Assembly (NCBI RefSeq): GCF_000170915.1
Contig: NZ_ABCT01000003.1
Span: 62,001-126,000, forward strand
Length of the DNA stretch: 64,000 nucleotides
Reading direction: 5' to 3'
Source: Limnobacter sp. MED105
Lineage (GTDB): Bacteria; Pseudomonadota; Gammaproteobacteria; Burkholderiales; Burkholderiaceae_B
The position numbers and the translations under genes are program-made. How positions within the stretch are numbered: the stretch's first letter is position 1; each line of letters begins with the position of its first letter. Under the pieces are notes generated by a model. It was not told the origin of the DNA and ran no database searches. It saw nothing but the letters and a program-made list of their open reading frames with translations. Positions 38,716-51,745 of the stretch are shown one piece after another.

Positions 38716-39594
38716 TTGAGCAGCGAACTCGACGACATCAGCGTACTGAACCCAAACGACAGCACCCCCGACACGGTGGATGGTGTTGGTTTGGCACGGC
38801 TGTACGGCGCCCCGTTGTTCAACATGCCCAAAGACCTTTACATACCACCCGATGCATTGGAGGTATTTTTAGAGGCTTTTGAAGGCCCACTGGACCTGCT
38901 GCTCTATCTCATTCGCAAACAAAACTTCAATATTCTCGATATTCCCATGGCGGAACTGACCCGCCAGTACCTCACCTACATTGAAGAAATTCGCACCCGC
39001 AACCTTGAGCTGGCCGCTGAATACCTGCTCATGGCCGCCATGCTGATCGAGATCAAATCACGCATGCTGTTGCCGGTGATACCCAAGGATGGCGAGGAAG
39101 AAGCGGAAGACCCGCGAGCCGAACTCGCCCGCCGATTGATTGAATACGAACAAATGAAGCTGGCGGCCCAAGAGCTCGACAAGGTGCCACTGGTGGGTCG
39201 GGACTTCTGGATTGCTCACGCCTTTCACGACCCGAACACCGTTGAACGCTTCCCTGATGTGAATCCGGAAGAACTGCGCGACGCCTGGCAGGCCATTTTG
39301 CGCCGCGCGTCACTGGTCAAGGCGCACACCATTTCTCGAGAAGAATTGTCGGTGCGTGAACACATGACCATGATTTTACGCCGCCTTCAAACCCAAAAGT
39401 TTGTTGAGTTTTTTGACATGTTCGACATTGAACGTGGTGTGCCGGTAGTCGTTGTCAACTTTATCGCCATGCTGGAACTGACCCGCGAGGGCTTGGTGAA
39501 AGTAACCCAGGCCGAGCCGTTTGCGCCCATCTATGTGCGATTGGGGTATGAAGCCACGGGCGGTACTGGGGCAGATAGCATCGTTCCGGTTTAA
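38716..39594 (+). CDS. scpA: Segregation and condensation protein A
   Basis: ScpA is the kleisin that bridges Smc heads and binds ScpB in chromosome condensation. The protein is 292 residues from TTG 38716. The N-terminal core is EVFLEAFEGPLDLLLYLIRK and the middle has EYLLMAAMLIEIKSRMLLP; the C-terminal winged-helix part ends near AEPFAPIYVRL. An ATG at 38824 would cut into a leader (NDSTPDTVDG through LYGAPLF) that I recall as conserved in betaproteobacterial homologues, so TTG is preferred although no ribosome site is clear. No scpB follows; the next 463 bp hold palindromic structure and then convergent dnaJ. Confidence 0.92.
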   Translation: MSSELDDISVLNPNDSTPDTVDGVGLARLYGAPLFNMPKDLYIPPDALEVFLEAFEGPLDLLLYLIRKQNFNILDIPMAELTRQYLTYIEEIRTRNLELAAEYLLMAAMLIEIKSRMLLPVIPKDGEEEAEDPRAELARRLIEYEQMKLAAQELDKVPLVGRDFWIAHAFHDPNTVERFPDVNPEELRDAWQAILRRASLVKAHTISREELSVREHMTMILRRLQTQKFVEFFDMFDIERGVPVVVVNFIAMLELTREGLVKVTQAEPFAPIYVRLGYEATGGTGADSIVPV

Positions 39595-39635
39595 GGCACG
39601 CAAGTGCCAATTGGCAGGAATAAACTTGGCTTGAT

Positions 39636-39832
39636 GGCATTCGCAAAGTCGCATGCCCTCCTCCGCCAGAAAGCCTGAATACCCCCTTTTTGAAATTCAC
39701 ACTGACTCACCAAGCTTGGCAAAAAAGCTGGCCAAGACTTGGTGTCGGCTTGCAGCCGAACATGGCGTGTGAATTCAAACGGGCAGGCTTTCTTGAAGGC
39801 GGAGAGACGGCAAAGCGAACTTCGCGAATGCC
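39636..39832. repeat. Large imperfect palindrome 1
   Basis: Four nested arm pairs fold this stretch on itself: 39636-39644 with 39824-39832, 39661-39676 with 39785-39804 (4-base bulge), 39689-39702 with 39767-39779 (one gap), and 39708-39720 with 39731-39744 around an A-rich loop. A side hairpin CGGCT/AGCCG lies on the right arm. It sits after scpA in a gene-free gap and has no T run like a terminator. The 39595-39635 stretch before it contains a small GGCAC/GTGCC hairpin. Confidence 0.75.
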
Positions 39833-39877
39833 ACGGACGGAGTTGAGATGCGGTGAAGCTTTGGAGCAGCGTTACAT

Positions 39878-40020
39878 CATTCTGCCGATTCAGATCAAGT
39901 CGCCCGGTTTGATTCGCAGCGAGGGGCGACCTGCAAGGTCGATGCGAACACACCTTTGGTGTTTCGCATGCCCCGAGCAAGATTCAACACCGGGGAATTC
40001 GACTTGATCAAGGCAGAATG
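39878..40020. repeat. Large imperfect palindrome 2
   Basis: The outer arms are CATTCTGCC (39878-39886) and GGCAGAATG (40012-40020). Inward come GATCAAGTCG (39893-39902) with CGACTTGATC (40000-40009), CCCGGT (39903-39908) with ACCGGG (39989-39994), and GGGGC (39923-39927) with GCCCC (39970-39974). The head holds two small hairpins, CGACCT/AGGTCG (39927-39941) and a 24-bp one at 39944-39967. The layout resembles a tRNA-like or three-way branched fold. It ends 38 bp from the dnaJ stop codon. Confidence 0.75.
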
Positions 40021-40057
40021 AGTGACGCGCTGCGAGTCACCAATCACTAAATCGCAT

Positions 40058-41185
40058 TCAGCCGAAGAAGTCCTTCACTTTGTCCATCCAGCCCTTCGCC
40101 CGTGGCGAATGCTTGTCGCCATCGGCCGTACAAGACTGCTCAAACTCTTTCAGCAGTTCTTTTTGACGCTCAGACAAACGTACCGGTGTTTCCACCACAA
40201 TGTGGCAGAACAAATCACCTGGGTAGGATGAACGCACTCCCTTGATACCCTTGCCACGCAAGCGGAATGTTTTACCGGTTTGTGTGCCTTCGGGAATATC
40301 AAACGATGCTTTGCCACCCAAGGTGGGCACCTCGATTGTTCCACCCAGTGCAGCGGCCGCAAATGAAACCGGCATTTCGCAATGCAGGTCATCACCGTCA
40401 CGCTGGAAAACCGCGTGTTCTTTCAAGTGCACTTCGACATACAAATCGCCAGCAGGGCCACCATTGACACCCGGCTCGCCCTTGCCGCTCAAGCGGATAC
40501 GCATGCCGTCGTCAATCCCGGCAGGCACCTTCACTTCAAGTGTTTTGTTGGTTTTCTTGCGACCCAAACCTTCACAGTCGTGGCACGGGTGCGGAATCAT
40601 CTTGCCGGTGCCATGGCACTTCGGACAGGTTTGCTGCACGCTGAAAAACCCCTGGGTCATGCGCACCGCACCCGATCCACCACAGGTTGAACAGGTTTCA
40701 GGCTTGGTACCTGGCTTGGCACCACTGCCGGAGCATGTACCGCAGTTGTCCCACACCGGTACACGGATTTGGGTATCAAAGCCCTTGGCCGCCTGTTCCA
40801 GCGTAATTTCCATGTTGTACTTCAGGTCGGAACCACGGTACATCTGCGACTGGCGAGAACCACCGCCGCCGGCACGTCCACCAAAAATGTCCCCGAAAAT
40901 ATCGCCAAAAGCGTCCGAGAAATCGGAGAAACCACCGGCACCGCCACCACCCATATTCGGATCCACACCCGCATGGCCGTGCCTGTCGTAGGCCGCACGC
41001 TTCTTGGGGTCGGTCAGCATCTCGTAGGCTTCTTTGGCCTCTTTGAATTTGGCCTCCGCATCCTTGCTGTCTGGGTTGCGATCGGGGTGATACTTCATAG
41101 CCATTTTTCGATAGGCTTTTTTCAGCTCATCGTCTGTGGCGTTTTTTTGTACACCCAAAATCTCGTAGAAGTCCCGTTTTGCCAT
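40058..41185 (-). CDS. dnaJ: Chaperone DnaJ
   Basis: DnaJ is the J-domain co-chaperone that delivers clients to DnaK and stimulates its ATPase. The protein is 375 residues. The J-domain at the N-terminus has the HPD motif ([11 protein letters not shown]). A Gly/Phe-rich linker follows at about residues 75-115. The zinc-binding domain has four CxxCxGxG-type repeats ([36 protein letters not shown]). Two substrate-binding beta domains end the protein. It is downstream of dnaK on the same strand with a 145-bp gap and no good promoter in it, so co-transcription is likely. Confidence 0.98.
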
Positions 41186-51546: not shown

Positions 51547-51561
51547 AGAATTTTGTTTTAT

Positions 51562-51733
51562 CTCTGCCGTGTCTGTATTGGTCAGTATTCCGTGAACCAA
51601 TATCTGTGATCCCGGTTGCGGATTTTTCAGGGTCGGTGTGATTCCCTCTTAGTCAGGGAAACCTAAAGACCCTAACACTGCGACCCACTTGAACCTTAGG
51701 TTCAGGGATCGGGCCAGTATGGCATCGGCAGAG
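51562..51733 (+). ncRNA. ssrS: 6S RNA
   Basis: 6S RNA binds sigma-70 RNA polymerase holoenzyme in stationary phase by mimicking open promoter DNA. It is identified by position directly after zapA, length of about 172 nt, and a closing stem CTCTGCCG (51562-51569) with CGGCAGAG (51726-51733). TATTGGTC near the 5' side pairs with GGGCCAGTA near the 3' side. The central part can form the long, interrupted hairpin with a purine-rich bubble. Exact ends are estimated from the stem. Confidence 0.85.
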
Positions 51734-51745
51734 ACCCCATACCGG

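Follow-up and report, generated by a model that had tools for sequence, protein, structure and literature searches.

The MITE-like repeats of enterobacteria and neisseriae (ERIC/RU-1, RU-2 and nemis/Correia) are palindromic, and in bacteria a large palindrome tends to be unstable. In the available parts of PMC2229807, PMC2759123 and PMC10969869, ERIC/RU-1, RU-2 and nemis/Correia appear as small non-autonomous intergenic repeats, the units RU-1 to RU-3 spanning 103–168 bp. The REP, REPIN and BIME sequences, as far as the accessible parts of PMC3733652 and PMC1525189 describe them, are high-copy extragenic palindromes, mostly located downstream of genes where the flanking ORFs are convergent or unidirectional, and often arranged as inverted pairs. 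The element that fills the scpA-dnaJ gap of Limnobacter sp. MED105 resembles both groups as so described: like the former it is small, non-autonomous and intergenic; like the latter it is high-copy, extragenic and lodged between convergent or unidirectional genes (83 of 84 clusters are not divergent). It differs from both as well. REP palindromes measure 20–40 bp, whereas the two Limnobacter palindromes, P1 and P2, reach about 200 bp and about 145 bp and carry branched tips; the REP foot tag GTAG/CGTC was not seen by eye in the P1 feet, GCCCAATCGGC/GCCGATTGGGC in nine own-genome copies and GAAA[AG]CCTG/CAGG[TC]TTTC; and REPs and REPINs are mobilised by RAYT, which is lacking in 12 of the 13 Limnobacter genomes searched. 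By its size, foot tag and transposase, the Limnobacter element is not a REP in the sense of the part of PMC3733652 at hand. Compared with ERIC, RU and nemis, its unit consists of two palindromes in a fixed order, with a polarity relative to gene 3' ends and with reversed blocks at orthologous sites. Among open-licence papers we found no description of a Limnobacter twin-palindrome family, which is apparently unreported so far.

In the window, i.e. the whole stretch of 64,000 nucleotides that was analysed, scpA stops at 39594 and dnaJ occupies 40058–41185 on the minus strand; the element fills the 463-bp gap between these convergent genes (39595–40057, as delimited by ORFs and gene calls). The sequence-only reading of this DNA had reported two large hairpins in the gap, and its coordinates and sizes fit our folds. 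Folded as DNA, the whole gap reaches -134.8 kcal/mol against a mean of -75.5 kcal/mol for shuffled sequences (z = -14.9, none of 100 shuffles equalling it), and folded as RNA it gives z = -14.8 (again 0/100). Taken alone, P1 (39662–39804) and P2 (39874–40023) have z values of -9.0 and -8.5, neither equalled in 200 shuffles.

According to fold and arm complementarity, the full P1 palindrome covers 39635–39833 (plus strand), its outer arms (39635–39649 and 39819–39833) being 93% complementary over 15 nt. Its core at 39662–39804 (plus strand) is the unit repeated throughout the genus, running from the foot GAAA[AG]CCTG to CAGG[TC]TTTCTTG. The foot is a stem of an A-tract with a T-tract, and P1 also has a CCC/GGG clamp, invariant in 42 of 42 aligned copies (alignment A1, below). 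P1 ends in a branched tip made of two side hairpins on the plus strand: hairpin A, CACCAAGCTTGGC ... GCCAAGACTTGGTG (39708–39744), a stem that covaries and carries GGCAAAA at its loop, and hairpin B, TCGGCTTGCAGCCGA (39745–39759), recognised from alignment, covariation and fold. P2 (39877–40021, plus strand, from its fold and a model match at 39874–40027) is likewise a long stem with a branched tip. Its first tip hairpin, CGACCTGCAAGGTCG (39927–39941, plus strand), is a stem with strong covariation; the second, ATGCGAACACACC TTT GGTGTTTCGCAT (39942–39969, plus strand), starts with ATGCGAA and ends with TTCGCAT, with a conserved stem foot and a variable tip. By eye, nine copies in the own genome, all of one subfamily, have a P1 that reaches further out, to about GCCCAATCGGC/GCCGATTGGGC, and direct repeats of ~42 bp flank the extended palindrome in some copies (L138). 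Degenerate direct repeats of ~27 bp (GGCGCATGCC...TTCGTTTGCAA), also seen by eye, lie outside P1 on the scpA side in L166 and L167.

The absence of a credible protein gene from the gap, already proposed from the sequence, holds: we dropped a coding role for its overlapping 105-aa and 129-aa ORFs, as all copies that match at least 90% of either (three and two copies respectively) contain stops. The hairpins are not ordinary terminators either, in agreement with the sequence-only reading. A scan of 39500–40150 gives no terminator-like site (G+C stem, short loop, T run), and P1, with an A/T-tract foot and ~100 nt between its arms, is unlike an intrinsic terminator. By eye the gap shows no R/L core site of an integron attC, and with respect to DNA-uptake-like motifs, every 10-mer of the window is present at most 6 times and none of the element's short motifs is conspicuous.

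The named ScpA loci closest to that of the window belong to Limnobacter. The distribution of the element was followed in 16 Limnobacter genomes (G000 being the own genome); individual loci are numbered L. Model R1 was built for the P1 core from 42 P1 cores (A1) and model R2 for P2 from 27 P2 cores (alignment A2), both alignments being restricted to BLAST-found copies covering nearly the whole core; A3 (P1) and A4 (P2) are alignments fitted to the models. A 501-bp region holding the element matches its own genome 39 times, a count that includes the region itself, with 29 matches for the P1 part and 12 for the P2 part. With at most 150 candidates scored per genus genome, so that all counts are lower bounds, R1 finds from at least 17 to at least 88 copies per genome in 11 of the 16 genomes and at least 2 in G004, and R2 finds from at least 6 to at least 29 copies in the 11 genomes rich in P1. 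Five genomes have no P2 match at all; neither model matches in G002, G010, G014 and G015, of which G002 (85%) and G010 (65%) are incomplete. Beyond the genus, R1 was run under stricter filters on 200 genomes sampled from the order (at most 16 candidates scored per genome, counts again being lower bounds): two match, both Limnobacter, and the other 198 do not. Similarly, a DNA search of 60 genomes gave 12 matching genomes, all Limnobacter. Plasmid and phage records hold no match to the element, nor do viral contigs (for one exact motif each). Within the sample searched with the P1 model, this multi-copy family is restricted to Limnobacter.

Mapping R1 and R2 on 80 fetched loci, with genes taken from a crude codon-usage finder, yielded 84 clusters; L228 and L229 gave no match. 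The 84 include orthologs, count L176, L200 and L227 (gaps or stretches) twice each, and leave out L191 853–997, the minus-strand P2 of L211 and a weak plus-strand P2 of L181. In 55 of them a P1 (P1a) is accompanied, 49 to 251 bp away from core to core, by a second hairpin, which is a P2 oriented like P1a or else an inverted, P1-like hairpin (P1b); the others comprise one P2 with P2 and 28 single hairpins. P1a(+)...P1b(-) units have inverted related ends, while P1a-P2 units have no matching ends. The six longest same-genome pairs at different loci share homology over ~480–620 bp, that is nearly the entire gap. The element is a non-coding unit of ~0.4–0.6 kb with two large palindromes, P1a followed by P2 (same orientation) or by P1b (inverted). 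A pair of small non-autonomous mobile elements was among the options initially considered. Non-autonomous mobility is the best supported of these options, with dispersed copies, a composite unit of ~0.5 kb and both filled and empty sites; the independence of the two members does not, as they form more a single two-hairpin unit, with both parts present in 55/84 clusters.

The clusters are far from randomly placed: 57 lie between convergent genes, 26 between tandem genes and only one between divergent genes, against 53, 190 and 49 respectively among 292 background gene pairs (from the window and 15 G007 stretches). The convergent excess (Fisher, p = 2.6e-17) and the divergent deficit (p = 3.4e-5) are accompanied by a polarity: of the 55 two-hairpin clusters, 52 turn the end opposite to P1a towards the 3' end of a gene. 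For the 14 tandem ones the ratio is 12 to 2, or 8 loci to 1 when grouped by ortholog (our own grouping); the lone contrary locus (L135/L214 vs L191), reversed between species, counts on both sides. Such a strong preference for convergent gaps could reflect a module useful to the host at gene 3' ends and held there by selection, which might block transcription from both sides, protect mRNA 3' ends or serve as a topological site of the gyrase type. The conservation of the P1 foot goes in the same direction: the columns of its A-tract/T-tract stem (GAAAACCTG...CAGGTTTTC) are invariant or nearly so, and the foot is still readable where the inner part has been replaced (L239). Besides, ordinary terminators on both sides are rarer at element gaps (3/55) than at other gaps (7/25). 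However, gaps with a terminator on one side or both are not clearly rarer with the element (19/55 vs 11/25), no terminator turned up in the scan of the window gap, and at L181 of G009 the native terminator of the right-hand gene persists, by eye, alongside the element. The terminator counts give weak evidence only, and we did not retain the idea that the element replaces terminators. Moreover, among seven own-genome loci the corresponding G007 gap is empty at three and holds a remnant at one. Since several orthologous loci lack the element, an essential role in the host is disfavoured. We hold a host module to be rather unlikely; a modest role would still be compatible with the conserved A/T-tract foot and the convergent bias.

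Orthologous gaps tell more about the gain, loss and replacement of copies. The scpA-dnaJ gap holds the element or a part of it in 11 of the 16 Limnobacter genomes (the P1 part only in G005, only P2 seen in G007, G011, G012 and G013); it is short and element-free in G004 (~106 bp) and G015 (~44 bp), and in three of the 16 dnaJ was not found within the fetched scpA stretch. The recurrent neighbourhood of scpA would suit a site of chromosome organisation (condensin loading, recombination or segregation) tied to this gene, as the sequence-only reading had envisaged. Against this, copies adjoin dozens of other gene pairs and vary between species, two members of the genus do with short element-free scpA-dnaJ gaps and five with no P2 at all; we regard such a site as highly improbable.

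The scpA-dnaJ copies themselves fall in different subfamilies. The window P2 is 91.0% identical to a paralog of its own genome (contig C40) and 90.3% to its G001 ortholog, and the G007 ortholog matches over its tip at 72.5%. More generally, among 45 P2 copies whose ortholog is known, 20 are closest to a paralog of the same genome, 16 to the ortholog and nine to another copy; the corresponding figures are 12, 7 and 16 for P1a (n = 35) and 4, 8 and 1 for P1b (n = 13). In these counts L196, a duplicate of L166, was dropped, two P2 copies within one locus (in L152, in L227) are treated as each other's orthologs, and the predominance of G009 and G000 among the loci favours same-genome paralogs there. 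At L141/L216 the orthologs are nearly identical, but so are the flanking genes, and this is a recombined tract of greater length.

By synteny, the seven own-genome loci correspond in G007 to three diverged elements (L145, L147, L149), one remnant (L138) and three empty sites (L136, L139, L150), where the flanks are 27–48 bp apart instead of 389–526 bp in the own genome (L245/L139, L246/L136, L248/L150). Six G009 loci similarly correspond to one diverged element (L187), four empty sites (L181, L198, L207, L213) with flanks 64–109 bp apart vs 626–781 bp in G009 (L237/L181, L235/L198, L238/L207, L236/L213), and one stretch of other genes (L190): at L234 6934–17227 of G007, ~10 kb of genes, one of them 4.7 kb long, stand where G009 has the element. 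The stretches fetched for the G009 comparison also cover L142 and the scpA locus, with an element at both. No target-site duplication was recognised in the seven filled/empty pairs, whose junctions are not placeable to the base because the few leftover gap bases are too diverged to align cleanly. Like a MITE, the element is short, multi-copy and non-coding. Some of the empty sites could be losses.

Both palindromes keep pairing while they diverge. Under the consensus structures, 96.4% of the P2 cells and 94.1% of the P1 cells pair, and both sides have changed in 19 of 41 P2 pairs and 15 of 22 P1 pairs, which bears out the initial view of the arm mismatches as compensated stems. With many copies and covarying stems, two of the observations that would have reduced the gap to degenerate sequence, a single copy and a lack of covariation, do not apply. 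The covariation score is 0.333 for P2 (shuffled mean 0.160) and 0.310 for P1 (0.119), values reached by none of 500 shuffles, and is at most 0.097 when the structure is slid along the alignment; related sequences, though, can exceed shuffles even when unstructured, and these same alignments had served to derive the structures. Covariation across homologues together with branched structures and conserved loop letters such as GGCAAAA are what would be expected of a family of structured non-coding RNAs transcribed from intergenic gaps, another of the original options.

An RNA structure should tolerate G-U on the transcribed strand, and we compared G-U cells on the plus strand with A-C cells, which are G-U on the minus strand. 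For pairs shared by both strands, G-U against A-C amounts to 10 vs 13 in A1 and 20 vs 29 in A3 (with 2001 Watson-Crick) for P1, and to 18 vs 7 in A2 and 9 vs 6 in A4 (with 1089 Watson-Crick) for P2, shared pairs being wobble-poor by construction. For all pairs of either strand, the counts are 18 vs 34 (A1) and 29 vs 57 (A3) for P1, 46 vs 17 (A2) and 116 vs 99 (A4) for P2, the A4 wobbles representing about 10% of the P2 cells. Thus the excess of G-U in A2 favours an RNA, while P1 leans to the opposite strand and P2, depending on the alignment, either to the plus strand or not at all; the test is a weak one, also because A3 and A4 were fitted to the models. As controls, eight tRNAs gave 11 G-U and no A-C in 173 pairs, a small sample biased by a folding program that permits G-U, and 6S RNA offered only 11 consensus pairs, too few to inform the test (the 6S RNA gene of the window, at 51558–51738, scores above the Rfam gathering score). 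The lack of a consistent strand preference fits a process acting on DNA and may still fit an RNA. Several other observations speak against an RNA: no sigma-70 promoter-like site was found in 39500–40150, Rfam gave nothing relevant (window at gathering score, gap at E up to 10), units are found turned round with respect to their neighbours, and template switching, as the available part of PMC8794818 indicates, can create and maintain such hairpins. Covarying structure thus stands, and its interpretation as an RNA family we consider improbable.

Template switching between inverted repeats can delete their centre. In the part of PMC8604942 available, it homogenises the arms and inverts the spacer of short inverted repeats in yeast coding genes; in Limnobacter such a switch is inferred instead for a family of dispersed copies, whose reversed blocks measure 171 and 428 bp. 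In L154 vs L225 the 171-bp P2 block is reversed with 86.7% identity between collinear flanks; the direct alignment gives 62.6%, since a palindrome also aligns to itself directly. In L140 vs L231, a 428-bp block spanning P1 and P2 is reversed with 83% identity, and further reversed blocks occur in L135/L191 (74–78%) and L206/L222 (80% over 126 columns). L151/L177 was dropped from the inversions, its direct (72.5%) and reversed (70.3%) alignments being about equal. The larger inversion could also result from independent insertions in opposite orientations. Deletion of the centre is illustrated by L242 13459–13506, which retains only the P1 feet where P1 is complete in its counterpart L138; the C30 copy of the own genome matches just the two outer parts of P1.

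Larger rearrangements are also found at copies. The neighbours of a single element in G000 (L149) adjoin two different elements in G009 (L186 and L189), which indicates a rearrangement breakpoint at or near the repeat. In G007 (L247 870–7640), two element pairs of the same orientation enclose genes for a solute-binding protein, two permeases, an ABC ATPase and a LysR regulator (Pfam), and the two outer neighbours are separated by a single element in G000 (L149). Other stretches between palindromes carry small gene pairs: in G007 (L227 2801–3675) a low-G+C pair, an M23-type peptidase (Pfam) and, by eye, a small lipoprotein-like gene, between P2- and P2+; at L152 2180–2608 of G000 the second gene of this pair was seen and the first was not; and a similar pair stands, by eye, beside one P2 in G009 (L212 1034–1908). 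The L227-type pair looks like a putative effector/immunity pair. Two further putative cassettes of this kind are possible between widely spaced palindromes of G009, an NlpC/P60 protein with a lipoprotein-like gene (L176 2748–3699) and a DUF3828 protein beside a short unassigned ORF (L200 2814–3544).

What moves the element was searched for in several ways. RAYT (PF01797) was absent from 12 of 13 genus genomes searched (G013 left out), and the 6.1 kb around the two hits, both in G008, contain no match to the P1 model, so that we discarded RAYT as the mobiliser. No linked transposase or autonomous relative was found in the examined stretches between widely spaced copies, which carry peptidoglycan-hydrolase and small lipoprotein-like genes instead of a transposase cargo. 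The lack of RAYT, the replacement seen between loci and the rearrangements at copies (L149 vs L186/L189, and L247) would all suit the remains of an old transposon, its enzyme gone and its spread now due only to recombination and gene conversion. On the other hand, copies at different loci are 98–99% alike, in the same genome (L147/L149) or in two (L214/L138), and relatives have empty sites, which together suggest recent spread; an extinct transposon is thus possible but, to us, doubtful.

We consider it probable that the scpA-dnaJ gap holds one copy of a palindromic Limnobacter element that is mobile but non-autonomous, is associated with gene 3' ends and has been reshaped by template switching. 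Copies would spread by a DNA mechanism and land, or survive, behind stop codons, presumably where they do least harm, with the conserved hairpin feet possibly recognised by an enzyme. The palindromic arms may then be kept mainly by the DNA polymerase switching template from one arm to the other, which would homogenise the arms, giving apparent compensatory changes, and flip or delete the centre. In kind, this element fits beside REP/BIME and MITE-type repeats, while being larger, two-part, polar and without RAYT. It might even represent a new class of RAYT-less, hairpin-borne mobile DNA, directed to gene 3' ends in a polar manner and flipping in place, so as to leave reversible, self-mending double palindromes, perhaps switchable transcription barriers, in convergent gaps throughout the genus; this extended proposal seems to us unlikely as a whole.

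Whatever their origin, dozens of large palindromes persist in a Limnobacter genome, keep pairing and prefer the places where two transcripts meet. Their filled, empty, reversed and core-deleted orthologous sites offer ready comparisons for the study of template switching at natural palindromes, and the family is a reminder that a functional RNA is not proved by covariation alone. Finally, it marks sites where Limnobacter genomes rearrange.
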